Source: Bolinopsis microptera
Taxonomy: Eukaryota; Ctenophora; Tentaculata; Lobata; Bolinopsidae
DNA length: 60,000 nucleotides
Assembly: GCF_026151205.1 (NCBI RefSeq)
Contig: NC_087078.1
Span: 5,785,675-5,845,674, forward strand
Direction of reading: 5' to 3'
Shown here piece after piece: positions 3,729-34,100 of the stretch. The position numbers were made by a program, and so were the translations under genes. The number at the start of each line of letters is the position of its first letter. The first letter of the stretch is position 1. The notes under the pieces are model-generated. The model had not been told where the DNA came from. It worked only from the letters and a program-made list of their open reading frames with translations, and searched no databases.

Positions 3729-4128
3729 TCCCCCCGCCCCGCTTTAGAGACACTCCCCTTCGATCAAAAGGTGTTAGAGTAGTATTCAAGTGGAATTAAA
3801 ACCAATATAGTTTAAAGATAAAAATGATTTCTAAATACAGAACTAGAAGGGATATTATTTTATCACAGCTTTATTAACGTAAGAAACATTCAGGCGTGTT
3901 TTGTGAACAACAACAATATAATGGAGTGGGTTTTGTACGAGGAAAGTGCTATGTGTTGGACCCGAAATCACACCAACGAGGTAACTTTAATTTAGAATTT
4001 AATTTAGTTGAACTTTATTAGTTAATTAATTAATTAAGCAGTATGATCTTGTTTTGATAAAAACGCTTAGTATCTGGCAGGGTAGTGCGACTAGTTATGA
4101 TGGGTACAAGTTTGCTATAATTTAAAAG

Positions 4129-8018: not shown

Positions 8019-8195
8019 CTTGATAGGGCTGCGAACGGATGCACTAAATATAATACCTCATTAATCTAATAATCCCACTTTTGCAAACTTATGATAATAT
8101 AATGATTCTAAGAAATCACAATTTAAATTCTAAGAAATATAAATGTTCTTTAATAACTAAGTAATTAACATATTTTAACGTTTTGCATTATATTA

Positions 8196-8761
8196 CCTTA
8201 CGAGATATAATTAAATGGTACGAAAGTCGGTTAGTCGGTGGTTTTTCGAAAAAAAAACACCATATTTTCGGACTATTTAGGTCACCGTCATTATTTTCCC
8301 CAAATTACGTATTTTCCTTAATTATGACTTTATCGATTTACTATCAATGTAGTAGTTATAAATATGATTCATCAAACAAATGAACACTAGTTATAGTGTT
8401 CGATGGGACTGATGGGCGGTTGGGGTCCGGGACCTCCTTAAAATTTTGATCATGAGTCCTAGTTTGTTGGTCAACTGCTATGTCAGAATCGAGTTTCACA
8501 AAAATTTCAGGCTGGACCCCCCTCCCACATTAAGTTGAGGCTAACTTTCAAAGGCTCCGGAGAAATCATTCACAAGATGAAAGAACTTATCAGAGAAGAT
8601 TTTTGCATCTAATTTTTTTCAAATATTGGTTGTTATTTTTGTAAAATAAGGAGATATAGATGGAAAAAATCCCCAAGTACCATGATTTAATTTGGGGTAT
8701 TTTCGTTCTCAAATTATTTAGGTCACCGGAATCATGTCGAACATAAATATGTCTCGTAAGG
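8196..8761. mobile_element. 566-bp inverted-repeat element (MITE) with CCTTACGAGA ends
   Basis: The termini CCTTACGAGA (8196-8205) and TCTCGTAAGG (8752-8761) are inverted and flanked by TA on both sides. ATTTAGGTCACCG occurs near each end in the same orientation (about 8274 and 8716). There is no transposase. A Tc1/mariner-like TA target is plausible, but a longer TATA-type duplication cannot be excluded. Confidence 0.7.
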
Positions 8762-9419
8762 TATATAAAATAATTGGCCCCACAAGTAGGAAGTAAAATA
8801 AGGACCTCTGTTCAAATCAAAATAGATTCAAAATAGTCGGACAACTCAAAATAATAACAAAATCTGATTGGCAGTCACGCTGCACGTGACTGCCCGCACG
8901 TGACTGTGCGCGTCCAATGGACGTAATGAAGGAAATTTGTTATGGTTATCGCAGGAGAGATCACGTTTAGAGTGCGTCTCTCTGATTAGCCCACGTCACT
9001 GCACACGTGACTGTGCAGAGCCAATAGGGTGCTATGTAACTTGTGTAAGGTGTGTACGCTAGGTGCGTGTAAGGGACATCTAATTTACTATTAAACACAG
9101 CTGGCCGGCAGAGAATTGAAAATATAAGGATTTTTTATGGATGAAAATCGAAGCGAAAACCTTGTAACCCTATGTTTTCGAGTACGCTGAACAAGATTAA
9201 ACTGGTTATAATTATCATACTCAAGGGCAAATTGCTTTAAAATGTACTTGAATGTCATAGATGCTATTATACGCTTTAACCGGCTTATCGAGTGGCACCA
9301 GTCTCTCTCGCCACTATAGTTCTCAGCTTAATTATTATCGGGCTCAGCTCGTGAAGGAAAGATCTCGAGCTCAGAAGACGAATACCCTTTTCCCAAATAT
9401 TTGCTAACATTAACGAATA

Positions 9420-11063
9420 TTTGGGATTAAGGAACTATCTCACTAGACTTGAGATTTTAAACTGTCTCAAAAAATTGAAGAACCACAAAAGTGCTGGGAT
9501 TAACGAAATCTCTTATGAGCAGTTAAAGTATGGGGCAAGTGGTCTTGTGGATAGGATGGAGAAATTGTTCTCAAAAGTTTGGAATTCAGAAGCAGTGCCT
9601 GACGACTGGTTGAAAGGCATCGTGATAATTGTACCAAAGAAGGGTGATACCTCTCATTGCTCCTATAATAGGGGGATCACTCTAAGATCTACAGTATCTA
9701 AACTGTATCAAATCATCATATTACAACGCATGAGTGACGGTTTAGAAAGTTTGCTACGAGACAATCAGTGTGGGTTTAGAAAGAACAGATCATGCATTGA
9801 TCAGATTTATTTACTCCGCACTATTATACATAACTGCATTGAATATAATCTCCCCCTGTATGTAAATTTTGTGGACTTCAAGGCAGCTTTTGATTCTATC
9901 GACAGGAATTATATTTGGAAAGCTTTCAGTCATTATGGCCTGCCATGTAAATACATTCGAATAATACAGGCATTCTTTAATGGAACTGTCAGTGCTTCTA
10001 GACACAATGGTGAACTATGAGAATGGTTTGAAGTAAGTTCAGGCAGTGGCCAAGGAGACATTCAGGGTCCCCCACTTTTTAATGTCTGCCTCAATGTGGC
10101 TGCTGAGAGAACAGAAAGCAACAAAGTGGTGTCCCACGGAGCGGTTCTTCAAAGATCTATCGGTCCGCTTGTTGATGATATCACTGTGTTAGATACAGAC
10201 TATGCAGATGACATGGCTGCACTGGATAACAGCGAGGAAGGTCTTCAAGAAAAAACTGACCTTTTGTGTATGTATGGTGCCCAGGGAGGTATCAGATTCA
10301 ATGGTAAAAAAGACTGAGGCTATGGTCATTGGTAAAGCAACCTTTCAACGGCCATACACGAAAGAAGCCACAGTGAACATCACTGTTGAAGACACGCCAG
10401 TGCAGCAAGTTAGTGATTTTACGTACTTATAGGTACAATTATCTCCAGTGACGGTACTATCGACCATGAGCTGTCAGCTAGGATTCAGAAAGCTTCCGGA
10501 GCCTTCAATCAACTGAGTAATATATGGAAAAACCGCAACATCCAGTCTTATACAAAGATCAGGATTTATAAGGCAGCAGTTTTGACAATATTGTTATATG
10601 GAAGTGAGGTTTGGAACACAACCAAAAAGCAGCTACATCGCTTTGAGGTGTTCCATCAGCGTTGCTTGAGGAGAATACTTAGGATAAGATGGCTCGATCG
10701 GGTTAGAAACACTGAAGTGCTGGAGCGTGCAAAGATAAATCCAGTAGCGACGTTCATAGGAGCAAACCGCCTGCGGTGGTTTGGCCATGTCACCAGAATG
10801 CCAGGCACTAGGCTTCCTAAGTACATGCTTAACTGGACCCCAGCGCATGGGAGAAGATCTAGGGGCCGTCCAAGAAAGAACTGGAGGAAATGTTTGCTGG
10901 AAGATGCTGCAGCGTTTACAGGAAACACAGACATAGACCTAGAAGGAGCGAGCGAGATGGCTAGTGACCGAAAACTTTGGAGGGAGATGATACGTCACAA
11001 ACGGGAGTTCATTGGTGCAGGCCACTCGAATGATTGAGGAGACCTAATCAAGTACAAGTAAGT
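9420..11063 (+). mobile_element. RTE-like LINE, 5'-truncated, reverse transcriptase broken
   Basis: The fingers/palm region (9421-10018) contains KNHKSAGINEIS, YNRGITL and VDFKAAFDSIDR, the RT motifs; YADDM of the catalytic core is at about 10199-10213. The C-terminal end (10582-11034) has LLYGSEVW, CLRRILRIRW, RLRWFGHVTRM and GRRSRGRPRKNW, typical of RTE-type LINEs. One in-frame TGA (about 10018) and frameshifts near 10315 and 10430 inactivate it; the apurinic endonuclease half is missing. ATTAACGAATA is duplicated at 9409-9419 and 11064-11074, and the insert ends in an AAGT-rich tail, so it inserted by target-primed reverse transcription into the left inverted repeat of the surrounding element. 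Confidence 0.85.
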
Positions 11064-11203
11064 ATTAACGAATACGTATATTAACCAACCTGGAGGGGAT
11101 ACTTAAAACATATAAGTGATACGAAAGATTGTATTAGCAGGAGCTTTCAAAATACTTGTGTAAATCGTTTTCAACTGGGGATGATGTTTTGAAGGGTGAT
11201 TAT

Positions 11204-11462
11204 CAGTGGTCGACCGGGATCGAAATTTAGTCCCGGCCGGGACCGGGATCGAAATGAAAACCCGGCCGGGACCGGGATTAGCCTCATCCCGGCCGGGACC
11301 GCGGGACCGGGATTTTTCCAATATTTCTCAATCTCAGTTAAAATGAAACAGTGTTATATGTTAAATAAAATCTTCCAGAACAAACTGAGGTATGTCAAGT
11401 TAAAATTGACAGTAAGTAGTAGTAACTACTCTATCTCTCTCTAATCTCTATCTCTCTATCTT

Positions 11463-11525
<63 letters not shown>

Positions 11526-12021
11526 TTATCTCTGAGATAGAGAGCGCGAAATCAATGTGGACATAGTTATTTCATCAGATGAAGAAGCTGATGAGGGCGA
11601 GGCCCCTGACTCTTGAGTATTTCTAAGTTTGTTCGGACTTCAGCTTTCTTCTAACATTTTGTAATTTGTTACTCATGAAGTGAACAGTTGAACATATAAT
11701 TAATTTTGAACATTAAAAAATTTGCCAACTACCATTGATCAAAATTCATAGAATTTTGATCATGTACCATAAACATTTCACATAAGACTTGGAAGTTGAA
11801 TTTTCAATAAACTTTTGGCGACGAGAAAGTGAAATGATCTAACTATTAAGAAGCACTGTAGAGCACTGTTGTAGTAAAACTTTTCGGAAAATGTTCACAG
11901 GTTCGCGAAATTCGGGCTCAAATATACGCTCAAAAACCGACTTTATTTTGGAAAAATCCCGGCTAAAAACAAAATCCCGGCCGGGACCGGGACAATATCG
12001 CCAAATCCCGGTCGAGCTCTG
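11204..12021. mobile_element. hAT-type non-autonomous element 2
   Basis: Ends CAGTGGTCGACCGGGAT and, inverted, CAGAGCTCGACCGGGAT are flanked by a perfect 8-bp duplication GTGATTAT (11196-11203 and 12022-12029). It is related to the element at 5805-6858 by its TCGACCGGG termini and CCCGGCCGGGACCGGG runs, but the interior differs. It contains a CTCTAT microsatellite (about 11428-11535). Just after it, a short frame (about 11542-11616) encodes VDIVISSDEEADEGEAPDS then TGA, probably the last codons of the parent transposase or another captured gene end. Confidence 0.88.
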
Positions 12022-12149
12022 GTGATTATATATGATGTAGTGGTGTCAATGATGAGTGGTGTGTGACGTGAAAGGGTGGAGTGGTGAGGGTGGAAAAAGT
12101 GTTCAGATTACATTATAATAACATTAAAAAACTAGGCTTGTGAGATAGA

Positions 12150-13925
12150 TGAAAAGGAAATGCCAGATGGCCTGGTCTTGAGGGATGAAGCGATCTTGGG
12201 AAGGATGGGGTCCCATAGTGAGCTACATTAAGGGACACGATCAGTACGGTTCATGGAGGGTTGTCTTATCTGGATAGCAGCATGTTCTGTCAGGTCAAGT
12301 AGAGATCGTGTGGTGAGTGATTTAAGGACTTCTATGTTGTTCCAGGAGATGGAATGTCCGGTGGTTACGGCATGATGGGCGGGGGCGGATTTGATCCTGT
12401 CTGTGGTTTCGTCGAAGGCATTGTTGAGTCTGTAGCATCTTTCGTGTTCTTTCATTCGTTGGATGAGGGGTCTGTAGGTCTGTCCAGTGTACTTGGAGGG
12501 ACATTGTGAGCAGGATATCTCGTAGATGGTGTTGGGGGTGAGTTGAGTGGGAGGGTGTGGTCTTCGTCTTGGTGAGAAGGTTGCGGAGAGTAGTGGCTGA
12601 TGAGTGGGTCACTTTGATGTCGTGTTGTCCGAGTATCTTGGAGATGGGTTTGGAGAGTGAGGGATGGAAAGGAAGGGAAACGCTGATTGCGTGATCTCTG
12701 GTCTGTCAGTAGAATGAGGCTAAGGATTGATGTCGGGGAGGGTTGGTGAACTTGCGGGGAACTTCGTCCTTGATGGTGGTGATGCGGAGGGGTGGGAAGC
12801 CGTTCTGAAGGCAAACGTGTCTGACAGTCTTTAGTTCGTCTTCGAGGTGTTGAGGTGAACAGATGTTGTAAGCTCTTCTGGTGAGGGATCGGATGACGGC
12901 GTTCTTGGAGGAGTTTGTGGTGCAGGACGAATACTTGGTGTAGAGGTTGGTGTGGGTGGGTTTTCTGTAGACTGAGGTGGACTTGTCAGGGTGGATGAGG
13001 ACGTCGAGGAAAGGTATGGTTCCGTCAGATGAAGGGTGTTCTTGAGTGAATTTGAGGTCTTCGGTGAGCGAGTTGAGGAAAGTGAGGAAGAATTCTGCGT
13101 GCTGTTTGTCTCTGAAGGATCCGAGGCCATCGTCAACGAAGTGGGCGTAGGTATGAGGAGGGTCGGGACATGAGGAGAGGGCTAAGGATTCTATTTCTGC
13201 GAGACGTATTTCAGCTAGTTCTACGATGAGGGGGGAGCCCATGGTGCCACCTTCGTCTTAGAAGTAAAAGGAGCCGTTGAATTCTAGGTAGGAGTTGTCG
13301 AGGCAAAAGTTGATGAGCGATCCTATGGTGGTGGTGGTGAGGTTGGAGGGGAGGAAAGTGGGTTTTTGTTCGTAGGATGTGATGACTGTTTTACGGGCCA
13401 GGCGCATGTCACAGGACATGCGCTCTTAACGTCTAGAGAGGAGTGATAGGAGTATGAGGGGTTGAGGGAGGAGTCGAATCGGTGCTTGAAGTCTGAGGAG
13501 TCTTTAAGGCGTAGGGAATTCTGAGCTAGGGGTTTGAGGACTGTGGCAAGGACTTTGTGGAGCGCTTGAAGGGGAGTGTTGTAAAAACTAACTACGCGGG
13601 ACGGATGGGTGCGCCAGGTTTATGGATCTTAGGTTGTCCGTAGAGTTGAGGCCATCTAGGGTGAAGGTTCTGCATCTTGTTGAGTTGGTCTGTGGTGATA
13701 TGTTTTGTCATTGTGAAGTTTCTTGAGGACTTAGTGCAGTTTGGAGGTGACGGATTGTGTTAGGTCTTTGTTCAAAAGGGTGTAGCTACCTGATGTCAAG
13801 TGTTCATTAACTTTATTTATGTATTGTTCGTGGGTTAACACCACAGTGGCGTTGCCCTTATCGGCTGGGAGAAATTTTAATTCAGATTCCTTAGATTTTA
13901 ATGATTTTATGTTTTGCTACTGACT
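12150..13925 (-). mobile_element. Penelope-like retroelement relic (RT plus GIY-YIG endonuclease)
   Basis: Read on the minus strand from 13925: a conserved ADKGNATVVLTHEQY block (about 13820-13870), then the RT core with MGSPLIVELAEI and FVDDGLGSF (about 13130-13242), the thumb-like FLDVLIHPDKSTSVYRKPT (about 12955-13015), and a C-terminal GIY-YIG-type endonuclease with TIYEISCSQCP and KYTGQTYRPLIQRMKEH (about 12450-12535). This domain order is diagnostic of Penelope-like elements, which use telomerase-like RTs. Several frameshifts separate the segments, so the copy is dead. Its ends and any target duplication are not resolved. Confidence 0.85.
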
Positions 13926-15538
13926 TCCAGCATTAGATGCAAACGAAGACCGGTATTCAGTTATCAAAAATGTATCCACTTATATCCAAGGAAACATATA
14001 CATCATACATGAACGCCTAAATTATAAAAAACTTAACTTAAAGGTTTTTGTCAAACTGCTATATTATTAGATTGTTACAAACGAACAGGAATTTCTCTTG
14101 TATAAACGGCAAACCCACCTATTACTCTCATAGTTTCCATTCTGTAATGAAAGCGTGGTCCCTAGGGAGTTGGTATGATGCATGATAGACGCTCCTTACA
14201 CACACGGCACTGCATTGGCTCTGCACAGTCACGTTTGCAGTGATGTGCGCTAACAGGAGCGTCAACCAATCTGTAAGTAGCCCTAACACAGTCATATGAT
14301 AATAATTAGTTCATCATAAAACCTCTATGAATAAAACTGTGGACTAGAAATACCGCTTATACTGCTTATACTATAATAGAAGTCCCGATACAATCTTTGG
14401 TAGTCCTTTTTGATATTGGTTAATATACGTATTCGTTAATGTTAGCAAATAATTGGGAAAAGGGTTTTCGTCCTCTGAACTCGAGATCTTTCCTTCACGA
14501 GCCCGATAATAATTAAGCTGAGAACTATATTGGCGAGAGAGACTGGTGCCACTCGATAAGCCGGTTAAAGCGTATAATAGCATCTATGACATTCAAGTAC
14601 ATTTTAAAGCAATTTGCCCTTGAGTATGATAATTATAACCAGTTTAATCTTTTTCAGCGTACTCGAAAATATAGGGTTACAAGGTTTTCGCTTCGATTTT
14701 CATCCATAAAAAATCCTTATATTTTCAATTCTCTGCCGGCCAGCTGTGTTTAATAGTAAATTAGATGTCCCTTACACGCACCTAGCGTACACACCTTACA
14801 CAAGTTACATAGCACCCTATTGGCTCTGCACAGTCACGTGTGCAGTGACGTGGGCTAATCAGAGAGACGCACTCTAAACGTGATCTCTCCTGCGATAACC
14901 ATAACAAATTTCCTTCATTACGTCCATTGGACGCGCACAGTCACGTGCGGGCAGTCACGTGCAGCGTGACTGCCAATCATATTTGTTATTATTTTGAGTT
15001 GTCCGACTATTTTGAATCTATTTTGATTTGAACAGAGGTCCTTATTTTACTTCCTACTTGTGGGGCCAATAAACTATTTTGATGATTGGGAACTGGGTTT
15101 TACTACCCCAGTTAATGTTTACTAAAATAGATATTGAACAGCAATTTAATAAGATAAAAATCGTACCAGCGTACTTTAAAATCTGTATAATTCATGAAAT
15201 TAAAAGTAGCTATGACCATTATATTTAGAGTTAAATATATTGTTTATATTCCCCATATATATATATATAAAATATGTAAGCTATTTGCATCAGTAATCTT
15301 TGTGGTCTTCTGCTCAGATTCAACATTCGTAGTCACATATCTTCAGGAGGATTTTCTCGAATTGTTTGCACTTTTTCAAGTTTTTAAAAACTAATTGTGC
15401 TTTCTGAGGTTCTGCTGCAGCTGGATGAAAATAAAATGTCAGTGTCAATTGGTTTCTTAAGTTTGCATGAAAGCTGGATTGGCGCCCCCCCCCCCCCAAA
15501 TAAGTTGATTAGGTTCGGCCACTATACGGCCACGATTA

Positions 15539-15855
15539 CAGGGTGTTTCGAGACTCGTGTCCAAATTTAGAATTAAAATTTTTAATTTTATGAAGGATCA
15601 AAATTAGGGAGGATAAAAAGTTAAAAATTGACATGGTAAAACGTGCAATAGACAATATGCTTCCGGGGGTTCAAAACCTTCTATGCAGAAAGGGGGCTTG
15701 GTTCGAAAAATTGTTAAAATATTAGATTTATTTTTGTTATGTGTTTTAAAATGTAATAATTTGTCTACAATTTAAAACAAAAATTATACCGTTTGTCTCA
15801 TTTGTTAGATTTTGAAAGCCATTCAAAATTTGGACACGAGTCTTGAAACACCCTG
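15539..15855. mobile_element. Mariner-type MITE, 317 bp
   Basis: Terminal inverted repeats of about 30 bp begin CAGGGTGTTTCGAGACTCGT on the left and mirror it on the right (15826-15855), with TA flanking each end (15537-15538, 15856-15857). The CAGGGTG terminus and TA duplication fit Tc1/mariner. There is no coding sequence. Confidence 0.88.
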
Positions 15856-15894
15856 TAGGCCACTTTACAGCAAATGATGACGCGGATCCTAATT

Positions 15895-15965
15895 CCTAGC
15901 CCTCTACCCTCGACCTTCTCAGCCTCCTGGCCCTCTACCCTCTAACCTCAGCATCCTACCCTCCA
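15895..15965. repeat. Outlying copies of the CCCTCTACCCTC minisatellite
   Basis: Two units of the CCCTCTACCCTC-TCAGCCTCCTGG repeat are found here, about 1.3 kb from the main array at 17250-17853, on the other side of the exon at 16042-16353. Confidence 0.75.
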
Positions 15966-16041
15966 AATAAATATTTATTCATAAAAAATTCCCTAAAACT
16001 ATTAGACTATAGGTAAGATTTCTAGCAATGATTGGACTCAC

Positions 16042-19000
16042 CATCAAACTTTATTTTGTAAACTTGGTTTGCCCATGGGCCTCCTTGGCCATCATGACGA
16101 CAAGCATTCGACTCTCCATATTTATTATAGGTCTGACCCGCATCTGTTGCACTTGCACACTGACCTCCATGCTGTATAGCAAATACTTTGTATCCAAAGG
16201 ACAAGGCTGCTCTGAGGCACTTTATATACGCATCAGTTCTTGATCCGTAAGAATCTTTGAGTATAGGGTGCTCCCCTTCAATTAGCTGTATAGCTCTGTT
16301 TCCTGTATCTTTCCAGCAGCCGAGGTCTTCTATGACCATTTTAGAATCCGAGCCTGAAGAGTTTTTTTGTTTAATGTTTTTTGCCTTACAAATATATGGG
16401 GCCTCGATACAGCTTTTTAAAGAAGTGTGGCATGTTGTTTCGCCCCTAAAAGGTTTTAATAAATGCTCAGCATTTGAATTATTATATTTAAATCAATAAC
16501 TTAGTGGTATTTAGTAGGCTATCCATTATCAATATGAAATACTAATAGTTTATCTAGATAAAGAGATAACAATTGAGGTTTTATCTAGATAAAACCGATA
16601 AAAAGATAGTTTTTTGCTTAAGGTAAAAGCCAAAACGTTTTCCCAAATTTCACTAGTACTAATTGGCGACTGTTATCACTGTTTACCAGTAAACTTGGTA
16701 CAGCACCATTTCCTTCCTTCTGAAAATATTAGAGCACTAGTTTCCTTCTCCTGACAATAGGAGTGAACATTCTCCAGAAAACAGTAAAAGAGTAAAGCAA
16801 CAGAGTTTTCGTCTCCTAAGAACAGTAGAGGATCGGTGACTCGTTTCTTTTTCCTATGGAAAATTTGGAGCAACAGATCTGTAATTCTCCTGAGGAGAAT
16901 GTATCCAGAACACTTCTTAATTGACTGCCATGCCAGTATTCCTGACTCGTGTTAACAGTAACATGCTGGTGCACGTTTCCAGAGTGGTTGTAAGCTAAAA
17001 TGCTAGCACCCTCCTCAAGATAACAATGTCAATAGCCAAAAGACGTTTGGGACTGCTTCTTGGATTACTTGTGAACAGGGAGAAGCAAAACCACTACAAT
17101 TTCCTTAAAATTTTACTGTATTACTTTCGGTAATTTCTTGTGAAGTTTTATACCGATACAAATATATTTAATCTAGATAAACAGATAACTTTTATTATCG
17201 AATTATCGGAGATAATTTTCGGTTACGATTATCGGAGTGGAGAGCGTACGCTCTACCCTCTACCCTCAACCTTTTCAGCCTCCTGGCCCTCTACCCATCA
17301 GCCTCCTGGCCCTCTACCCTCAACCCCTCAGCCTCCTGGCCCTCTACCCTCAACCCCTCATCCTCCTGGCCCTCTACCCCTCAGCCTCCTGGCCATCTAC
17401 CCTCAACCTTCTCAGCCTCCTGGCCCTCTGGCCTCTACCCATCAGCCTCCTGGCCCTCTACCCTCAACCCCTCAGCCTCCTGGCCCTCTACCCTCAACCT
17501 CCTCAGCCTCCTGGCCCTCTACCCCTCAGCCTCCTGGCCCTCTACCCTCAACCCCTCAGCCTCCTGGCCCTCTACCCATCAGCCTCCTGGCCCTCTACCC
17601 TCAACCCCTCAGCCTCCTGGCCCTCTACCCTCAACCCCTCAGCCTCCTGGCCCTCTACCCCTTAGCCTCCTGGCTCTCCAACCTTAACCTTCTCAGCCTC
17701 CTGGCCCTCTACCCCTCAGCCTCTCGGCCCTCTACCCTGAACCCCTCAGCCTCCTGGCCTTCTACTCCTCAGCCTCCTGGCCATGTACCCTCAACCCCTC
17801 AGCCTCCTGGCCCTCTACCCTCTACCCCTCAGCCTCCTGGCCCTCTACCCCCTCTACAAAGTCACACTCAACTGCAAACCTCGTATCTCCAATGGCAATG
17901 CCGTCTGACAGGTTCTAGTAGGGCATTTTGTGTACTGGTCTTCCTGGCAGCACATACTGTCTCTCTGAATCACACTGCCGTCACACTTGGTACCATAGGG
18001 AGCGAAGAGCTTCTCCTTGTTCGATTTACAACAGTAATGTCCGTCGAAGAATGCGTTGGGATGGGAATCAGGACATTCTGAAATATAAACGGCGAATATC
18101 AAATGTACAGGGTGGGCCAAAAGTCAGTACCCATACGTTGGCCTTAATAGCTCCGCCGTGTTTTATATTTGAGAGCTGTTGCTTTGCAGATTGCATACTG
18201 TACTTACTGGTTCGAGGATTCCGTCGTCAAAATTTGAAAATTCGAATATTTTAGACCACGCCCATTCAATATTAAAACACCTATATTGTTTTCTCTGAAC
18301 ATGCTGAACGCCTAATTTTTTCAGAGACGGTAGATTATCAAATGTTACATATGATCTGAAAACATGAGGCAAAACGGATTAGAAATGACGAAGTTATCAA
18401 GCATTTTCTGTATCTCGTTAACAAAATTGACTGGGTGATTATGGGACACCGTGACACGACACCTTAATTGAGCACTCTTAACAATTCCCATAATGTTTAA
18501 CGGGGTAGTTAACGGGGTCACCTTATCACGTGATTAGGTAATCCAATCACCTGATCACACGTAATGAATAAACTCGTTATGCTTCATATCTCGGTCATCT
18601 GAGAAGCTACAGTTTTAATTCTTTCAGGACAAACGTAATTCGAATGGCCAAACACAATTTAATAACATTAAGCTTGATCCAACTATCCAAACTATCAAAT
18701 AAATGTGAAAATGAACCTCCATTTGAAAAAAATGAACGCGAATATTTTTCGAGTTGACAAATTCCTCGAACCAGTGGTGGTACTAAGTCATATCAGAAGG
18801 AAGTATTTAAATTGGGCACTCAGTGACTGAGCTATAAAGGCCAACGTATGGGTACTGACTTTTGGCCCACCCTGTATGAATATATTATGTAGTTCTACGA
18901 CAATAAACGTGCAGAGAATTTCTATAACATCATCTGTGATCTGACTCAACATTCCCACATAGCAGCCTTGTAGCCTTTTCCTAAACATGAACTGGTTGGA

Positions 19001-19918
19001 CAATTTGCGAGCATAGGATCTAGTTATGAGAACGGTGCTTATATCTAAAATTTCTTTGACAAAATCAAAAATCACCAACCTGGCTGAGGTCCTCGGTTAC
19101 TCTGACAGGTTCCACTGGGGCAAGAAGTGTACTGGTCTCCTGCACAGCACAAACTGTCTCTCTGAATCACACTGCCGTCACACTTGCTACCTTGAGGAGT
19201 GTTTACCTTCTCCTTGTTTGTTTGACAACAGTAATCTCCGTTGTAGTAGACGTTGGGATGGGAAGCAGGACATTGAGGTTCTGTAATATCAGTTCAGTAG
19301 TAATTACACTTTTCAATACGTTGCTCGCTTATCAGTTACTTATCGTTAAATCGTTGATAAGACTGGCTTGTTTAACCGGTGCCGTGGTATGATGTATAAA
19401 TGGGAGAAATACAAGAATTATAGGCTTGATGAAGTGGTAGATGATGGAGCTGAATGGATCCGGGATACTCTCAGGCTTGCTAAAGTAGAACATGTTAACG
19501 TGTGTACAGTTCAGAGCTTCAATGGTTAACGAGAAATCTCCAGGGAAGTCATGTCTAGGAGTCTTGATGCTGCATTAAAAATTATGTATAGTCATAGCTG
19601 TAAATATAAGAAAATAAAAATGTAGAACATGTAACTGCGAAAATTAGATAAACCAATATTTTATGAAACTGACGAATTTTATAGCTTAATCTGTCATTCT
19701 TTAAACTCACCATCATCTGTCTCATCACAATTGGACTTGTAGCCCTTTGCCAGGCATCCTTCATACTTTTTAGTCATCTTTTGGCATTTTTTCTGTGCTT
19801 TTTTCTGTGCTTTTTTCTGTGCTTTAACTATTTTGCGGTAGTTCCTTCCTTCATAATTACTTTCTTCAGTCAAAGTAATGAGTACCAGAACGATCACAAC
19901 TAAGAAATACACTTTCAT
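16042..19918 (-). CDS. Secreted cysteine-rich modular protein (phase-1 exons), partial
   Basis: Exon 1 (19918 to about 19711) encodes a signal peptide, MKVYFLVVIVLVLITLTEE, then a Lys-rich stretch with three KAQK repeats and ends at a GTGAGT donor. Exons 19280-19080 and 18077 to about 17900 each encode a 7-8 Cys module with CPxSHPN, YCC, KEK, GxKCDGSVIQRDSxCC and DQYTxCP. Exon 16353-16042 encodes a module containing LGCWKDTGNRAI, GYKVFAIQHGGQCAS and GGPWANQVYKI, a domain I know from cnidarian and mollusc secreted proteins, and ends at a GTGAGT donor. All recognised junctions are phase 1, so the modules splice in frame. The donor of the 18077 exon is tentative (GAG|GTTTGC); without it the frame stops at 17854. 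Later exons are not seen, so the 3' end is missing, degraded or unrecognised. Function unknown. Confidence 0.7.
16354..17249. other. Intron-like stretch with TATCTAGATAAA-type repeats
   Basis: This lies between two exons of the minus-strand secreted gene. TCTAGATAAA occurs near 16555, 16585 and 17173, and ATTATCGG-type repeats occur at 17196-17236, suggesting an old DNA-transposon relic. I could not define its ends. Confidence 0.4.
17250..17853. repeat. CCCTCTACCCTCAACCCCTC minisatellite, about 21 units
   Basis: Alternating 21- and 30-bp units share TCAGCCTCCTGG and CCCTCTACCC. The array starts immediately past the exon ending near 17856 of the minus-strand secreted gene. Because both unit lengths are multiples of three, long Pro/Ser/Leu open frames cross it on the plus strand; these are not genes. 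Confidence 0.92.
18108..18874. mobile_element. Mariner-type MITE, 767 bp, in an intron
   Basis: Inverted repeats of about 45 bp begin CAGGGTGGGCCAAAAGTCAG and are mirrored at 18830-18874, flanked by TA (18106-18107 and 18875-18876). It lies in the intron between the two cysteine modules of the secreted gene. No transposase is evident. Confidence 0.9.
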
Positions 19919-20084
19919 CTTCCTACGTCGCGTGTTTGAGTAATAAGTAGCAATGAAATTATAGGTTTACAGCCCTAAATTATCTTAATAAACTGCTACC
20001 CAATCTGGATCTCTGGATGATATGGAAAAGTTGTTTTGATATTATACCTATCAAACTGAATATGATATTTAACTCCAGTGTCCA

Positions 20085-20640
20085 AGAAAAGAGAAATAAA
20101 AGCAGTAAATTATAGAAGTATAGATCTCACTGACTTCCCATTATGTCATCAAGATATTTGAAAGAATTCTTCGAAAAATGTAATCCTGTACTTTGAATCT
20201 AATAAAATGATAACAGATACATGGCTTTAGAATCTAAAGTTTAGATCTGGCAGAAGCTCCTTGAACACTTGGAGAGTATCTCCCAAAACCTCCGGGAAAA
20301 TAAAGAAACAGATGTCGTACATCTGAACTATGGAAAAGTATTCGACAGGGTTGAACACGAAATTCTGCTTGCCAAGGTAAAGAAACGTGAGACAAAAGAA
20401 AACTTACTGAAATGGCTCGGTGACGTCTCTGTGAAAAATGTAGATTCCAAACAGTCCTTGTTAATGGAAAACGGCCATTCCTAGCTAGCGTCCTAAGTGG
20501 TGTCCATCAGCCATCAAAACTCAGTACTGGGACCTCTTCTGTTCCTTTGTTTATATCAACGACTTAGTTAACACCATCCAGCAATCTCAAGTCAGTAGTT
20601 TTACTGACGAGACAAAGATTTCCAGAGCCATAATGAAAAT
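20085..20640 (+). pseudogene. CR1/jockey-like LINE reverse transcriptase relic
   Basis: Broken frames resemble the classic RT block order: NYRSIDLTDFP with a degraded helper helix (20110-20180), GRSSLNTW (about 20250), DVVHLNYGKVFDRVEHEILL (20302-20361), VLGPLLF-like and YINDLVNTI (20525-20585), and SFTDETKI (20599-20622) in place of the YADD-type core. Frameshifts and stops break it repeatedly; no ends or target duplication are found. Confidence 0.7.
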
Positions 20641-20655
20641 ATTTCAGATAAAGGA

Positions 20656-21737
20656 GTGTAACGCTAGTCTAATCTCACTACTTCAGATAAAATAGTGTAA
20701 CGCAAGTCTAATCTCACTACTTTAGATAAAAGAGTGTAACGCAAGTCTAATCTCACTACTTTAGATAAAAGAGTGTAACGCAAGTCTAATCTCACTACTT
20801 CAGATAAAAGAGTGTAACGCAAGTCTAATCTCACTACTTCAGATAAAAGAGTGTAACGCAAGTCTAATCTCACTACTTCAGATAAAAGAGTGTAACGCAA
20901 GTCTAATCTCACTACTTCAGATAAAAGAGTGTAATGCAAGTCTAATCTCACTACTTTAGATAAAAGAGTGTAACGCAAGTCTAATCTCACTACTTTAGAT
21001 AAAAGAGTGTAACGCAAGTCTAATCTCACTACTTTAGATAAAAGAGTGTAACGCAAGTCTAATCTCACTACTTTAGATAAAAGAGTGTAACGCAAGTCTA
21101 ATCTCACTACTTTAGATAAAAGAGTGTAACGCAAGTCTAATCTCACTACTTTAGATAAAAGAGTGTAACGCACGTCTAATCTCACTACTTTAGATAAAAG
21201 AGTGTAACGCAAGTCTAATCTCACTACTTTAGATAAAAGAGTGTAACGCAAGTCTAATCTCACTACTTTAGATAAAAGAGTGTAACGCAAGTCTAATCTC
21301 ACTACTTTAGATAAAAGAGTGTAACGCAAGTCTAATCTCACTACTTTAGATAAAAGAGTGTAACGCAAGTCTAATCTCACTACTTTAGATAAAAGAGTGT
21401 AACGCAAGTCTAATCTCACTACTTTAGATAAAAGAGTGTAACGCAAGTCTAATCTCACAACTTCAGATAAAAGAGTGTAGCGCAAGTCTAATCTCACAAC
21501 TTCAGATAAAAGAGTGTAGCGCAAGTCTAATCTCACAACTTCAGATAAAAGAGTGTAACGCAAGTCTAATCTCACTACTTCAGATAAAAGAGTGTAACGC
21601 AAGTCTAATCTCACTACTTCAGATAAAAGAGTGTAACGCAAGTCTAATCTCACTACTTCAGATAAAAGAGTGTAACGCAAGTCTAATCTCACTACTTCAG
21701 ATAAAAGAGTGTAACGCAAGTCTAATCTCACTGAACC
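20656..21737. repeat. 39-bp minisatellite, about 27 units, spanning a splice acceptor
   Basis: The unit contains AAGTCTAATCTCACTACTT, then CAG or TAG, then ATAAAAGAGTGTAACGC. TCTAATCTCACTACTTCAG is a textbook 3' splice site, and the last complete unit supplies the acceptor for the exon at 21701-21891. Outer units carry CTTCAG, most inner units CTTTAG; some have CACAACTTCAG. The 13-codon period opens several frames; the 376-codon minus-strand frame is an artefact. Confidence 0.93.
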
Positions 21738-24700
21738 TCTACCTACGGACCTTATACCACGACCTCCAAGTGACCCTCCCTCCTGACACGGCACACCAGG
21801 TGCTAATAGAGGTCCTGGAGAAGTCTCTTAGTTATGTGACTAGTAGATACTTAGCTGCCAGACCCAGCAAGACCAATAATAAACTTTACCTGTGAGTATA
21901 TTTGTGTGATTCTAGTGTAACTCTAGTGACGTAATTTTACCTGTGAGTATATTTGTGTGATTCTAGTGTAACTCTAGTGACGTAATTTTAAATGACTTCA
22001 AAGAATGCTAACACGATGCTAACACACTGCTAACAATGCTAACTTTATAAATGTTGATGTGATTTAACTCTCCCAGGTATGATATAACAGCGATTGTTAT
22101 GATTTACTCAACGTTTGTCTGGTTGCTCACGGGTAAAGATGTTACACAGGTAGTAGACATATTTTATGACATTTCGCCTAGTTCCTTTCCATTGACGAAA
22201 TGTTATAGCTTGCTATATACAGCTTGCTAGTGATATCATTTAAGAGATGGAATTCTTCAAAGCAGCAAGATAATTTACCCACAGCTTGGTTGTTACTTAA
22301 TGTTACAGTATACAGTAGAGTAATTAGTACAGTATAGTAACTAGTAATGAGTTATTAATTAGTAATTAGTATAGTATAGTAACTAACTACTTTCTGTTTC
22401 ACTTATTTGGAGAAAGAAACTGGACCACATGTTTCCAGACAAGTTAACTTATTTACCCATCCTCAGATGACAGAACCAAGGGAAGGACCACTGATAGTCA
22501 TCTACTCGGACCTGAACCGCCTCCTCGCGGCTATGTCAGTCATCACCTCCCCACTTCAAGCAGTAGTGGACACTATGAAACTGTTTCAAGACAAGGTCTA
22601 CTTAAACTCGCACCATCTCGCACGGCCAGGTTGGTTACTACTACAGGTTAGGTACACTCTTCCATTCTAACGCGATTCTAGTTATAATGGATCAATATAA
22701 GTTGAATAACTTACTACTTTATTAAATTGTACTTATTCTCCTTGATCCCCCAGAAAGTGACGGTACAGGAAGCGGAGCGTGCGACTCTGCCCCCGTCCTC
22801 CCCCACAGCCACACCGCTGCCCCCTCCTCCACTCCTGTATCCTGGCTGCCCTCTATCTGGATATCTAGCCTCTTTACTATTGATAACCTGGACACTACTC
22901 TTATTTACTTGCTCAGGTTTTTGTTGTTTATACACACTCTCATTTACTTGCTCAGGTTTGTGTTGTTTATACACACTCTCATTTACTTGCTCAGGTTTGT
23001 GTTGTTTATACACACTCTCATTTACTTGCTCAGGTTTGTGTTGTTTATACACACTCTCATTTACTTGCTCAGGTTTGTGTTGTTTATACACACTCTCATT
23101 TACTTGCTCAGGTTTGTGTTGTTTGTACACACTCTCATTTACTTGCTCAGGTTTGTGTTGTTTGTACACACTCTCATTTACTTGCTCAGGTTTGTGTTGT
23201 TTGTACACACTCTCATTTACTTGCTCAGGTTTGTGTTGTTTATACACACTCTCATTTACTTGCTCAGGTTTGTGTTGTTTATACACACTCTCATTTACTT
23301 GCTCAGGTTTATGTTGTTTATACACACTCTTATTTACTTGCTCAGGTTTGTGTTGTTTATACACACTCTCATTTACTTGCTCCTGGGTTTGTGTTGTTTA
23401 TACACACTCTTATTTACTTGCTCAGGTTTGTGTTGTTTATACACACTCTCATTTACTTGCTCAGGTTTGTGTTGTTTATACACACTCTCATTTACTTGCT
23501 CAGGTTTGTGTTGTTTATACACACTCTCATTTACTTGCTCAGGTTTGTGTTGTTTATACACACTCTCATTTACTTGCTCAGGTTTGTGTTGTTTATACAC
23601 ACTCTCATTTACTTGCTCAGGTTTGTGTTGTTTATACACACTCTCATTTACTTGCTCAGGTTTGTGTTGTTTATACACACTCTCATTTACTTGCTCAGGT
23701 TTGTGTTGTTTATACACACTCTTATTTACTTGCTCAGGTTTGTGTTGTTTATACACACTCTCATTTACTTGCTCAGGTTTGTGTTGTTTATACACACTCT
23801 CATTTACTTGCTCAGGTTTGTGTTGTTTATACACACTCTCATTTACTTGCTCAGGTTTGTGTTGTTTATACACACTCTCATTTACACACTCGCGTTTCAC
23901 ATGAACAACGCTACAACTAAACTTAATCTTTACAAAAAATAACGTTGTTTCCTGTACATTATGTGTGACCCTCTAATGCCTCTATGAGTCTATGTTGTCT
24001 CAGATGTTTTAACCAGAAGAATCCAGCTCACAAAGATCTGCTAATGACCGCTATTTCTAACGGAGCTAGGATACCCCAACAAATACAACTGTATCACAAC
24101 AGGGAGACTAGTCGCTTTGATTACAGTGAGTTAATGAGACTATCTTAACCATAATGAGTTACAATTAGTGGTGTTAGTTAGTAGATAGTAATATGTAACG
24201 TTAGAACTAGTTACAATAATAATTAATTAGTAAAATGTAACAATGTTTTAAAATATTTCACCTAGTAACAAGTTAAACTCCTGTAAAAAGTGAGGACTTT
24301 CAAATCAATTATAAAGACTTAAAGACATACCGTCAATTAGCAATTTAGTAATATTTAAATGAGTAACAAGTAATGTTAATTAGCAATTTAGCAATATTTA
24401 AATGAGTAACAAGTAATATAAATTAGCAATTCAGTAATATTTAAATGAGTAACGAGTAATGTTAATTAACAATTTAGTAATATTTAAATGAGTAACAAAG
24501 TAACAAGTAATGTTAATTAGCAATTTAGTAATTTAAATAATGTTAATCAGTAAAAGTAACAAGTTCACCTCCTGTAGACACAGTAGTCCTGACCCTCTCC
24601 CGCCTGTTAGCAAGCTGCAAGTACGACACCACCTCCTGGGCCACATTTATCCTCTCCACCTTCATACCTAACGAGATCTGGAACTGTGTTAGTAAACCCA

Positions 24701-27700
24701 ACTTCAAGTTCAGTAGGCCAGGCGAGAGTGAGGACCTTTGGCAGGTGATTGATGCTGAGTTACCTTGACAACCTTGTAATTGTGAAACTTTTGATGAGAC
24801 AAACTTGATAATATGTTTTAACTTTATTAAGATACCTAAAACCAACAAAGATGTAACGAAAAATAAAACTTACTTTTCTGCCAGGATTGTATAGGAGAGG
24901 TGCTGTTCCCTGCCCTGGAACCTATCCTGTATGAGGTGTTGAACCTTGTGGTACACCGCACCAAGATAATGCCCTCAACTGAGGAGGAAGTGGCAATTGA
25001 GGAGCTACCCTGCTCCTGTAGGATAAACCGCTTCTCTACTCCAAGTTAGTACTTAGTGCTCCTGTAGGATAAACCGCTTCTCTACTCCAAGTTAGTACTT
25101 AGTGCTCCTGTAGGATAAACCGCTGCTCTACTCCAAGTTAGTACTTAGTGCTCCTGTAGGATAAACTGCTGCTCTACTCCAAGTTAGTACTTAGTGCTCC
25201 TGTAGGATAAACCGCTGCTCTACTCCAAGTTAGTACTTAGTGCTCCTGTAGGATAAACCGCTGCTCTACTCCAAGTTAGTACTTAGTGCTCCTGTAGGAT
25301 AAACCGCTTCTCTACTCCAAGTTAGTACTTAGTGCTCCTGTAGGATAAACCGCTTCTCTACTCCAAGTTAGTACTTAGTGCCCCTGTAGGATAAACCGCT
25401 GCTCTACTCCAAATTAGTACTTAGTGCCCCTGTAGGATAAACTGCTTCTCTACTCCAAGTTAGTACTTAGTGCCCCTGTAGGATAAACCGCTTCTCTACT
25501 CCAAGTTAGTACTTAGTGCCCGGCCCCTGTAGGATAAACCGCTGCTCTACTCCAAATTAGTACTTAGTGCTCCTGTAGGATAAACCGCTTCTCTACTCGA
25601 AGTTAGTACTTAGTGCTCCTGTAGGATAAACCGCTTCTCTACTCCAAGTTAGTACTTAGTGCCACTGTAGCCTGTAGGATAAACCGCTTCTCTACTTCAA
25701 GTTAGTACTTAGTGCCCCTGTAGGATAAACCGCTTCTCTACTCCAAGGTAGAACTTAGTGCCTCTGTAGGATAAACCGCTTCTCTACTCCAAGTTAGTAC
25801 TTAGTGCCCCTGTAGGATAAACCGCTTCTCTACTCCAAGTTAGTACTTAGTGCTCCTGTAGGATAAACCGCTTCTCTACTCCAAGTTAGTACTTAGTGCC
25901 CCTGTAGGATAAACCGCTTCTCTACTCCAAGTTAGTACTTAGTGCCCCTGTAGGATAAACCGCTTCTCTACTCCAAGTTAGTACTTAGTGCCCCTGTAGG
26001 ATAAACCGCTTCTCTACTCCAAGTTAGTACTTAGTGCTCCTGTAGCATAAACAGTGTTACACAATGTTTAACTGCTCTCAGCAATTTCAAAGTTCAAATT
26101 TGCTTAGGGCCATAAAAGGCATGGCTCTTATCAATCGATATAAATAGCACAACAATTGCTGTGTACTATGAAGCAAGTATATTTTTAAACTTGTAAACTT
26201 GTAAACTTGTAAACTTGTAAACTTGTAAACTTGTAAACTTGTAAACTTGTAAACTTGTAAACTTGTAAAATTGTAAACTTGTAAAATTGTAAAGTTGTAA
26301 AATTGTAAAATTGTAAGGTGTATTGTGTACTAAAGTTATTGTTGTCAGGTTTGAAGGTGGTACTCCACGAGTCACTATCAGCAATATTCACACACCTTAG
26401 TCTGGTAGCTCCCTCTATCAGAACCACAGTTGTCAAGCTGACCAGGATGCTGTGTTTTAGAGCAAAACTCAAGGAAGATTCTGAAATACCTGTTCTCAAA
26501 CTTGTGAGTCTGTTATTCTATAAATGAACAAATAAATAAATAATTAAATAACTTAAGTTATTTACTTTCCGTCAATAATTGTATAATAGAAATACCCGAG
26601 AGTCTCCCCAATATTTTATTACTACGCCCAGTTTTAATTATCCTCTCTTTTAACAGTTCCTGGCGTTTTTCCTGAAGAGACTGTTTATGAATCCGAATGA
26701 AATCTGCCGGAAGTTTCACGCTGTAACAAGAGACTCTGTATCTAAAAACCGAAAATATTCATCAAAACTACCATTTGTTGATATTCCTGAAGAAAGTTTA
26801 TCCATCTTGAGAAAAGTAGGGGATATAAGTCGACTTATCGTGATGAAAGATGTTCTGAGTAAGTATTTATTTGTCTGATCAAGTAAAAGAATATTGCATT
26901 CGTAAGATATTCAGTGATTGCACATGCCTCATACGTGTATTGATTACTTAAATTATTACATTTGACCTGATATAATTAATTAATCGTTGTTAGATGTTAT
27001 AACGCTACCTACTGGAGCTGAGAAATATTTTGAGGAAGAGAACCAACTAGTTGATCACTCTTTAACCTCTCTCCACGACCAACTTACTCTTACTCTTAAT
27101 CTATCCAGGTATTTAAATATTTTATTATCTAATGCTGTGCTTCTCACCATTTAACATTTATGAACAGATTTTACACCCAATTTCGCAGTAATTACAATTG
27201 ACGAGGGTTTTCTTGGTGTTAAGTATGTCTACATACTGAACCTTTTCATAGAAGGAACCAATATTTTCAGTTCGTTGAATTCTGTGCAGCTGGATTACGA
27301 TCTGGAGTACATCAGTGGCACATACCCCGAAATATTCAATAATTTTCATCTAATGATGGACGAAATTACTGTAGGTTTTTTCTAATGATATCGCCCGAAT
27401 TCTTAATTCATACCTGCATTAAATTTCCAGAACACTGTAGCTCTGGGCCTAGCATGATCATAATACAATACGTCATGGAAATTGTCAAGATTGGAACAGC
27501 TCCTTGAGTGACCGCAAATGATAAACTTTCAAAAAGGTCTTCTCAAAAAGCAAGACGTAGCGCGCGTTCGAAATATTTCTTTGTTCTAAGCGCCAAGCTA
27601 AGATTGTGTTTGCGCGCGCGCGCTATATGATATATTTTATTATGTTATTATATTATATATATATATTATTATATATAGCAGGCAGATAGATAGCGAGCAC

Positions 27701-31127: not shown

Positions 31128-34100
31128 ATGGAAGGGTTTATCTGCCCCGAGTGCAAGGAGTCATTTCAGACAGCAGGACTTCTCGAGGGGCACTTTAGCA
31201 CCCACTTTGAAGGTCCTTCCATCAAATGTAGGGTATTTAGAAGCTTAGAGGTTATTTTATTAACGTTTTAGGAATTATGAATCTGAATTAACGATGTTCA
31301 TTTACTTACCTTTGATCTATACTCGTATAGCACTATATAATTCACATATTACAGTAATACCCCAATACAATTTACCGCGGAGTTTGTGAGAAAGGAAAAA
31401 TCCGCGGTAAATCGAGGTTTTGATTGTTTACATTATGTTAAGCCCTATTTGGGGGAAGGGGATGGTCGCAGTAAATTGGGGTGCGGTAAATCGGGGTTTT
31501 ACTGTATGTACTTTGTCTCTAAAAATAAGAGGTAATTGCCAATAACCAACTAACATATCTCTCAGCAATCTTCAGCAAAGCTAAAGACTACACACTAAGC
31601 TGGATAGTAAATGAGGAGGAAGGAACACCATCAGTAGGTCCCGGATCTAGTGGCTCTGGTTCTTCTACCCCCAACTTTACACATGAACACAGGCAGCCAT
31701 ACAATGAGGAGCAGTTCATCGGTATAGACATTTACTCATTTTCTTATATCCTGTTTAAATCCTGTTTAAATCCTGTTTATATCCTGTTTAAATCCTGTTT
31801 ATATTATGTTTACATCCTGTCTATATTCTGTTTAAATCCTGTTTATATCCTGTTTATATCCTATTTATATCCTGTTTATATCCTGTTTATATTCTGTTTA
31901 TATCCTGTTTATATTCTGTTTATATTCTGTTTATATCCTGTTTATATCCTGTTTATATGTTCCCTCAGGAAGATTTACCAACCTGACGAAGGTATTCAAA
32001 GCAGTCAGACCAAAACGTATCAGTCACTCTCAAAAGGAAGCGAATAAGCTTCATCTCCGTCTGGACAAGCTGGTCTGTGCTTTACTCACTGAGATTAGGG
32101 CGGGGAAAAAGAATTTGAAAGGTATGAATCCCACAATAAAGACATGCTTTTTTATTCTCTTGATTGTTTACAGTGCCACCATATTTGTTTGACACATGAC
32201 AGTAATTCTAGGTTTTTATTGGTTAATGCGCTAACTTTGCAGAGGTAGAGAAGAGTGTGATACCGTGGAATGATGACAGTGATGTGTGTGTAAGCTGCGG
32301 AGAGATATTGAGTGTCTTACAGCTGGCTAGAAAACATCACTGTAGACTTTGTACTGGAATTCTCTGTTCTAATTGTAGTCGGGTCAGTGCTCCTTCTTCA
32401 AATTTTATTATTATCATTAAATTTAATTTGTTAAATTTTAGTTTCATGCACATAATCTGTGTTAGTTTGTTAAACTTTCGGAGATCGGCAAAGTTGAATT
32501 AACTGATAAGATTTCATTCTAGCTCGTAACATTCAAACCTCACACTTGACCCTAGTTTGTACCATTAAGTTTCACCCTACAGTTTGTACCATTAAGTTTC
32601 ACCCTACAGTTTGTACCATTAAGTTTCACCCTAGTTTGTACCACTAAGTTTCACCCTACAGTTTGTGCCGCTACAAGAAGCGGTAGAAGCGGTAGAGAGA
32701 CCGGAGCCGGAGTGGTTGGAGGGGTTCGTGCACGATCTAAGGCTCTGTGACAAGTGTCAGAACGTAATTATCAGGTGAGACTGCATTTGTAGAATATACA
32801 AGATATGAAGCTGATAATTTAACGGTGGAGCAAACAATACAGCTTTGGGTTTTTATATTTGTTTTATTCCCAGTGCTAAGGAGGAGATAAAAACCAAGAA
32901 CTCCGATCACACAATGGAGGAGAATTACAGGAAACTGTTGGAGGCAAGAGAAAAGTGCAACAGTCTGGTTGATGTTTATACCCGTATATCTTATTCGCTG
33001 AGGTGGGATTCTTATACCGATAACTGATACCATGTCTACCTACACAAGAGAGAATATAAAATAGAAACATGTATTAGAAACCTAAACTAGTCGGCGCTAA
33101 TGTAAATATGGTTTTTAAACCGCCGTGTTTAGGTTCAGCCGAAATAGATTTTAAGCTAATGTTTTTTTTTGTAATACATTGATGTAAAATTTATTTGAAT
33201 TTTGAAATTAAAAAAAATGAAACTTGCTGTGTAAGGTAACGTTTCAGACTGACTTAACATTTGAATATTTGGTTTCCTCAGGAATGGAGACGCTACCTAT
33301 ACCCTTGATGAAGGAAACGTTAAAAGAGTCGAGCTTATCAAGCAGTTTAAAATTGTGGACACTTTTAGGTTTGTTAATTTTTATATTCTTTACTATCTAG
33401 TATCTACCACGATATAATGGTCAGTGTTTGATAGTAAATATTTTCATGTCAGCTTGCTAGTACCGATTAAAACTTGCCAGATGACGTTAGACAGCATAGA
33501 TTTGTATTTTATTCTGCCTTTTCAATATTAATCTTCGTACAATGTAGCACTAGTATCACCCAACAGTAGCACTGATCTAAACAGATCATATTCAGTGAGC
33601 GTATAGCGGGAATAAGAACAAGCTCTCCAACACAACTAAAAGTACAAACCAATGTAAGAACTGCTACAAGATCATATCTACAAGATAACCTGCCAACTAC
33701 TGCTCCTCTTCCTGAACTAAAGGAGATCAGTGAGATACAGGTACACTGTACAGTACATCCCCCATTTACCGCAAATCTTGGATATTTCTGTACTTAGTAA
33801 ATTTTAATATATTGTTAAATTGTGGTAAATAGTTTAATTTGTGTCTTGGTAGATACTTTTTAAGTGTAACGTTTTGAAACTTCAAATAGGCTAACCTTTG
33901 TTGAAGTTCCTGTACTTTGTTCAGGAGCAATGAGCTCAAATGTCAATAAGGTCTAATAGTAACCATGGTAACCAATAGTAACGATCATTTTGTCCCACAG
34001 AAACGGCGATTAGAAGATAGCAGAGCCGCGATACAAGTTCAAAAACAAGAGGCTCTCAGAACTCAAAATCCATCACCTCCGACGGTTTGTTTCATTATTT

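Follow-up and report, generated by a model that had tools for sequence, protein, structure and literature searches.

Minisatellites across apparent splice borders of a KIAA0825-like gene and of motor-protein genes in the ctenophore Bolinopsis microptera

The KIAA0825-like gene and its arrays

The window analyzed here, 60,000 nt of the Bolinopsis microptera genome (GCF_026151205.1, NC_087078.1:5,785,675-5,845,674, forward strand), contains a KIAA0825-like gene in which several predicted splice borders lie inside minisatellites. Arrays were called on the window with Tandem Repeats Finder (TRF), and splice sites were placed by a model of eight exons (A-H, Table 1). Phases agreed at 7 of 7 introns, and the 397 joined codons contained zero stops. 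The final joined protein matched DUF4495 (PF14906; E = 2.3e-21) over profile positions 114-247 of 319, with residues 4-134 encoded by exons A-C, while the first exon joining had given E = 1.7e-21. A single DUF4495 match was reported in the genome, at this locus. We take DUF4495 to be the domain of KIAA0825, hence the gene name used here. Exons D-H, outside the Pfam match, are predicted from phase, open frame and splice consensus.

Table 1. Predicted exons of the KIAA0825-like gene and tandem arrays of the window. Positions are those of the window; vertical bars mark splice borders.
Feature	Position	Strand	Copies (matches)	Description
Exon A	21701-21891	+		First 32 bases in 39-bp array, last 7 in 51-bp duplication; DUF4495 E 4.3e-11, profile 114-171; phase
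Exon B	22077-22149	+		Phase, DUF4495 continuity
Exon C	22467-22629	+		Alone DUF4495 profile 210-259 at E 0.03; joined match; phase
Exon D	22754-22916	+		Ends with the 25 exon bases of the 39-bp unit; phase, open frame
Exon E	24004-24125	+		Phase
Exon F	24578-24744	+		Phase
Exon G	24885-25044	+		Ends with the 34 exon bases of the 46-bp unit; phase
Exon H	26349-26502	+		Acceptor in phase; donor is a guess
39-bp minisatellite (array A)	20646-21732	+	27.9 (98%)	Spans exon A acceptor CTTCAG|ATAAAAG at 21700/21701; last units carry CTTCAG|ATAAAAGAG
51-bp perfect tandem duplication	21885-21990	+	2.1 (100%)	Spans exon A donor TTTACCT|GTGAGT at 21891/21892 (border present twice)
39-bp minisatellite (array D)	22892-23885	+	25.4 (98%)	Spans exon D donor GCTCAG|GTTTTT at 22916/22917, exon bases in first unit; CTCAGGTTT (AG|GT) counted 24 times
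46-bp minisatellite (array G)	25011-26052	+	22.4 (94%)	Spans exon G donor CTCCAA|GTTAGT at 25044/25045, exon bases in first unit; 46 not a multiple of 3
43-bp array	24335-24503	+	3.9	Wholly intronic, between exons E and F
8-bp array	26186-26316	+	16.4	Intronic
27-bp array	32554-32666	+	4.3	Probably spans rabenosyn acceptor (CACCCTACAG|TTTGT); FYVE completed by next exon

The original prediction, that four arrays of this gene each include a splice site together with adjoining exon bases, was borne out by TRF and the exon model, which put 7-34 exon bases inside each array. That these arrays sit on real-looking splice borders is confirmed as far as sequence can tell. The acceptor of exon A is the weakest border of the gene because its upstream exon was not found: no exon was detected on the plus strand of 901-20700, including any for DUF4495 profile positions 1-113, and the 5' half of the gene may be absent, lie far away or have diverged too much to be matched. 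In between, near 19918, starts what looks by eye like a minus-strand gene. The 43-bp array, which like the 8-bp one did not figure in the original prediction, is a counter-example within the same gene.

The units were near-identical, and the differences numbered 7, 4 and 10 in sets of 19, 20 and 13 aligned units, which was too few for testing constraint on the splice-site copies from variation inside the arrays. Among the 27 scorable units of array A, 12 had TTCAG and 15 had TTTAG, and the seven units nearest the exon all had CAG. In a genome search that skipped very common words and was made for array A alone, its unit was found only at its own locus, and it therefore probably arose in place. 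The 51-bp duplication occupies 106 bases for 2 x 51, so that 4 bases are shared beyond whole copies; if its second donor copy were used, the reading would run into an immediate stop. Intron sequence free of array amounted to 86 bp between exons A and B and 118 bp between exons D and E.

Chance expectation within the gene

The array-free intron lengths of the KIAA0825-like gene (124-327 bp) were derived by hand from the TRF calls and the exon model. In introns of this length, ~36% of the placements open to a 43-bp unit cross a border, and the chance probability was 0.13 for three of four junction arrays and 0.057 for four of five. The claim that random minisatellite birth would rarely hit junctions so often is thus weak for this gene alone, much of whose border-hitting is explained by its short introns. 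Four arrays in one gene are unusual against the genome sample described below: when 13 arrays were shuffled over its 518 junctions, any gene reached four with P = 0.0026, a value qualified by the choice of this gene for being striking. As the chance within one gene is not small, the argument needs genome-wide data.

Border arrays in a sample of other genes

The genome searched comprised 264.65 Mb in 232 contigs, of which thirteen contigs of 15-26 Mb made up 258.07 Mb (97.5%). Exons were located by Pfam matches and fetched with flanks, and junctions were called by frame and splice consensus. Sample 1, which was exploratory, covered myosin, kinesin and TCP1 (185 exon matches, 303 junctions); sample 2, drawn from dynein AAA_6, SNF2 and Pkinase, covered 133 of the 135 exon matches selected (184 junctions); and sample 3 covered 23 UCH exon matches and the 2 Pkinase matches left out of sample 2 (31 junctions). 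Pooled, they gave 518 junctions in 118 genes. The matches used were 87 of 89 for Kinesin, 25 of 29 for TCP1, 58 of 60 for AAA_6, 29 of 34 for SNF2, 48 of 136 for Pkinase, 27 of 39 for UCH (4 of the 27 exons were not fetched) and 73 of 73 for myosin. Dropped rows were picked by eye and were mainly whole-domain matches, with some partial, merged or near-duplicate matches in Pkinase, TCP1 and UCH. The AMP-binding family (14 matches) was not used, as most of its strong matches cover the domain in one exon. Two array classes were defined, a long-unit class (period >=25, score >=100) and a broad class (period >=20, score >=60).

Splice sites inside minisatellites numbered 10-16 of 518 (~2-3%), including 13 inside long-unit arrays (~1 in 40), at 8 donors and 5 acceptors. 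Ten of these 13 formed, by our own reading, a strict set, to which a 13-bp array (L039) was added. A kinesin on C12 had both a donor array, with at least 51 copies of 33 bp and running to the end of the fetched piece, and an acceptor array, with at least 92 copies of 26 bp and ending no more than 2 bases from the end of its piece; an array edge in this kinesin lay 98 bp from the next acceptor. On C2, a myosin array had 22 copies of 40 bp and a kinesin array 7 copies of 49 bp, while a dynein donor array had units of ~62 bp that included 51-53 exon bases. Outside the window, unit length was 26-62 bp in nine of the ten strict cases, the exception being L048, which TRF listed as 65-153. Unit lengths were not tuned to the reading frame, with 5 of 13 being multiples of 3, in line with removal of the copies by splicing. 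In several units, the exon-derived part codes for apparently conserved motor-protein residues, and the borders at L037 (donor and acceptor), L023, L057, L065, L051 and L048 were taken as secure for this reason. The real acceptor of L060 could lie one unit farther along. In the two-copy cases (21885-21990 of the window, L022, L065 and L017, the last doubtful), no more than 1-4 bases are shared in addition to whole copies, and these cases resemble ordinary short duplications.

Two other kinds of candidate were rejected. Long open frames beside myosin exons were dropped as coding arrays, TRF having mostly shown no matching array. The recent kinesin pair L041/L042, with introns of 102 and 1048 bp, was considered as a before-and-after case of array growth; the extra DNA is an intronic insert of 930 bp (L042 ~1071-2003, G000 C13) bounded on either side by arrays of inverted 11-bp repeats, and it is absent from the near-identical kinesin copy. 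As a separate observation, the 13-bp array at L039 (G000 C12:14833832, minus strand) starts exactly at a kinesin donor, with 21.7 copies seen (GTGAGGTTAATTA repeated).

Frequency of arrays at borders

In sample 1, where 14 splice sites lay inside broad-class arrays, the rate of array first edges at positions -35 to 0 was compared with that at 36-280 bp inside introns. For the broad class there were 13 border and 17 interior edges (ratio 3.9, P = 4.5e-4), and for the long-unit class 10 and 7 (ratio 7.7, P = 6e-5). The ratio was 5.9 for period 20 and score 100 (P = 2.3e-4) and 2.5 for period 15 and score 50 (P = 0.008). The same test and both classes were written down before being run on the fresh families of sample 2, where two spanning arrays had their start further inside the exon, a convincing one at -51 (L115) and a doubtful one at -48 (L091). 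Sample 3 had zero spanning arrays and one interior edge among its 31 junctions.

For the pooled data, spanning was taken at any exon depth, a definition wider than the -35 to 0 bin and set after the sample 2 result. On this definition, 13 long-unit arrays (10 strict) spanned a border, compared to 8 interior edges in 87.7 kb, giving ratios of 6.9 and 4.6 (strict 5.3 and 3.5) at 40 and 60 bp of exposure per junction, respectively, with P between 1.9e-5 and 0.008 and gene-bootstrap lower bounds of 1.8-3.6. Three of the 8 interior edges (L036, L065, L114) resemble, in our reading of their place and unit length, far ends of border arrays. The broad class gave 16 spanning arrays (10 strict) and 20 interior edges in 85 kb, with ratios of 3.3 and 2.2 (strict 2.1 and 1.4) at the same exposures and P between 6e-4 and 0.27. 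Larger end margins altered the pooled ratios little. By family, broad-class arrays were found at 9 of 143 kinesin, 5 of 121 myosin and 2 of 87 dynein junctions, and none at the 39 TCP1, 42 SNF2, 56 Pkinase and 30 UCH junctions. Clustering within the genes of the sample was not significant (2 same-gene pairs compared to 1.0 expected, P = 0.25).

Other features of the window and the genome

A further border case had been proposed in rabenosyn. An array was indeed found at or near an exon border there, with the FYVE domain completed by the next exon (E = 4.9e-12 with the array-coded FVPLQ and 1.5e-12 without it), and this is likely a fifth border-array case, in which the exact place of the border is unproven.

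Elsewhere in the window, a minisatellite at 17256-17850 adjoins an apparent exon, read by eye, of a minus-strand secreted-protein gene, and may be coding or another border array. A 12-bp repeat of 3.2 copies (19787-19825) encodes, by eye, KKAQ repeats near the start of the apparent minus-strand gene mentioned above. A reverse transcriptase match (RVT_1, E 1.3e-18) lies at 9631-10311 on the plus strand, and an open frame resembling reverse transcriptase, recognised by eye and with no Pfam match, lies at 20245-20484, just upstream of array A. In the genome, at least 59 matches to berovin-like photoproteins (81-91% identity to berovin) were seen, many of them in tandem (G000 C5:17012652-17026413; C13, C1, C3, C2); the C5 matches comprise 15 copies at a spacing of ~939 bp. 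These matches point to a luminous ctenophore.

Discussion

The arrays are probably splice-border minisatellites of the kind described as 'mirages' in amphioxus, growing on the intron side while the exon-adjacent site remains the one used. A tandem duplication of ~25-65 bp crossing an exon-intron border would give a copy with exon bases and a second splice site, as the anatomy of the units shows, and unequal exchange or slippage would then multiply the unit, as the near-identity of the units suggests. The array would grow toward the intron, the copy touching the intact exon would be the working site and the others would leave with the intron, which is consistent with phase and protein continuity; introns of ~100-300 bp would thereby lengthen to 1-2.5 kb. 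The exon-adjacent sites appear to be in use because the eight-exon model is in phase and stop-free, the DUF4495 match runs across exons A, B and C, and the second donor of exon A gives a stop. Short introns would explain much of the border-hitting, and the data hint, without settling the matter, at a further several-fold excess of long-unit arrays, whether these arise preferentially at borders or are retained better there.

Several results weigh against this account or against an excess at borders. Seven array units could be added to the 5' end of exon A before any stop is met, and none of the three forward frames of array D is closed, so that parts of arrays A and D may enter the mRNA. In sample 1 the border ratio was only 1.8 for period 10 and score 50 (P = 0.053), and in sample 2 the -35 to 0 bin held 0 events compared to 3 and 1 interior events in the two classes, so the enrichment was not confirmed there.

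The open frames of array D would suit an explanation by coding arrays or alternative splicing, in which any copy is usable, with variable 13-residue repeats from the in-frame 39-bp units of arrays A and D, or stepwise removal of units through dual AG|GT sites. By sequence, the array D unit fits the dual-specific AG|GT type, while arrays A and G and 4 of the 11 strict junctions outside the window do not; scored as an acceptor, the array D donor attains a value matched by ~1 in 142 of the AG|GT donors outside arrays, and dual-specific AG|GT sites are reported to be enriched in human tandem-repeat genes (PMC10809524). Stepwise or dual splice-site use is accordingly a possibility for array D. As a general account this explanation is unlikely: the 46-bp units shift the frame, the 51-bp unit adds a stop, only 5 of the 13 unit lengths are multiples of 3, and AG|GT, present at 7 of 11 array junctions and at 223 of 501 others, showed no significant excess at the former (P = 0.17). 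It is far less probable still that the arrays were brought by transposons or are assembly artefacts, since the units hold the gene's own exon bases, array A had no copy elsewhere in the search that skipped very common words, and independent cases occur in other genes; the reverse-transcriptase-like open frame at 20245-20484, recognised by eye and not matched by Pfam, is what would speak for a transposon.

Given border minisatellites that leave with the intron, their placement may reflect pure tolerance, duplications arising uniformly, those crossing a border being as harmless as intronic ones and short introns making hits common without any preference. The chance of spanning was ~0.36 per array in the KIAA0825-like gene (P = 0.13 for at least three of four), and in sample 1 broad-class coverage at the splice site (8 of 145 donors, 6 of 158 acceptors) was similar to that at 60-300 bp inside introns (5-8 of 144-145 and 7-12 of 156-158, respectively). 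The test on the fresh families of sample 2 gave 0 border events, and the strict set in the broad class had a ratio of only 1.4-2.1 (P 0.27-0.05). Tolerance without preference is a serious possibility, to which we give somewhat less than even weight, as it is opposed by the pooled long-unit ratio of 4.6-6.9 (strict 3.5-5.3), with bootstrap lower bounds of 1.8-3.6, and by the three of 8 interior edges that look like far ends of junction arrays. Alternatively, borders may be favoured, either because junctions are hot spots of duplication (e.g. through co-transcriptional nicks or R-loops) or because anchored arrays persist longer. The sample 1 ratios of 3.9 and 7.7 and the pooled ratios, which are stable to end margins, point in this direction, as does the greater density of repeats with 1-50 bp units near intron ends reported for 31 plants and green algae (PMC3887541). 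This explanation is possible but held with clear reserve: sample 1 was exploratory, its ratio fell to 2.5 at period 15 and lower at period 10, the border bin was empty in samples 2 and 3, families differed (9 cases in kinesin, 5 in myosin and 2 in dynein, with none in TCP1, SNF2, Pkinase or UCH), and base composition differed between junctions (GC 0.40) and introns (0.35).

The original prediction that a mechanism favours splice borders, or that selection tolerates arrays leaving a usable site, therefore stands in part. Other genes are alike and the pooled long-unit arrays are in excess, while the fresh-family test gave no events and birth and retention are not told apart. On the genome-wide enrichment it anticipated, a sample chosen by homology gave a pooled long-unit ratio of 3.5-6.9, which favours enrichment but comes mostly from sample 1 and depends on array class, with a null in sample 2. 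Overall, that long-unit arrays favour borders is suggestive, not proved, as it rests on post-hoc pooling.

Repeats across exon-intron borders were described in amphioxus as mirages, with units of 10-72 bp in Adh3 and 150-160 bp in the globins BflGb6 and BflGb9, haplotype differences, and RT-PCR suggesting regular splicing past the repeats (PMC3087553); lancelet PGBD5 and TnC also have border repeats (PMC3902484). The ctenophore arrays are alike in that the unit holds the border and exon bases, in the KIAA0825-like gene as in other genes, in that either the donor or the acceptor side is duplicated with several splice-site copies, and in their unit lengths (39, 51, 39 and 46 bp in the window), within the reported 10-160 bp. 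Splicing is apparently normal in amphioxus, and phase and protein continuity are consistent with normal splicing in the ctenophore. Unlike the amphioxus cases, with 2-7 copies in the available accounts, ctenophore arrays reach at least 92 copies, and a frequency is estimated over 518 junctions.

Minisatellites at exon-intron borders are also known in human, as internal tandem repeats in paralogs from segmental duplications (PMC2812944) and as the FAM20C variable number tandem repeat (VNTR; PMC5941971). According to the accessible parts of these reports, the variable human repeats partly create new introns and alternative transcripts, whereas the arrays described here would lengthen existing introns. 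The genome-wide excess of repeats toward intron ends in plants and green algae is similar in kind and weakens any claim that the enrichment question was untouched; the units there are of 1-50 bp, with dinucleotides abundant in algae, and units containing borders or exon bases are not mentioned in the available text (PMC3887541). Array D, with repeats that are potentially two-way AG|GT sites, resembles the dual-specific arrays of polyubiquitin UBC as reported (PMC10809524), but UBC units are whole coding modules and the array junctions studied here had no significant AG|GT bias. The duplication carries splice signals, a feature shared with the Rogers model, in which introns are gained when genomic DNA is duplicated in tandem (potato RdRp, PMC4974935). 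In contrast to that model, the intron is not just a duplicated exon segment: 86-296 bp of non-array intron remain beside the measured arrays, and the introns therefore seem older than the arrays.

No report of border minisatellites in ctenophores was found in a literature search, which is not proof of their absence in print. The kind itself is known from amphioxus, and what is new is the ctenophore host and the frequency estimate. In this ctenophore lineage, splice borders might be true hot spots at which long-unit minisatellites arise or persist several times more often than in neighbouring intron, and border arrays, by growing, might then be one of the main ways in which introns lengthen and gain spare splice sites, independently of the amphioxus lineage; we advance this wider proposal only tentatively and think it rather doubtful. 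Earlier mirage reports, in the parts available, dealt with individual lancelet genes and a few isolated human cases, and the presence of border arrays at ~2-3% of sampled ctenophore sites suggests that they are not a lancelet quirk. They can be counted to learn whether tandem duplication is drawn to borders, they provide natural tests of how the spliceosome chooses among dozens of identical splice sites, and they show a route from short to kilobase introns.

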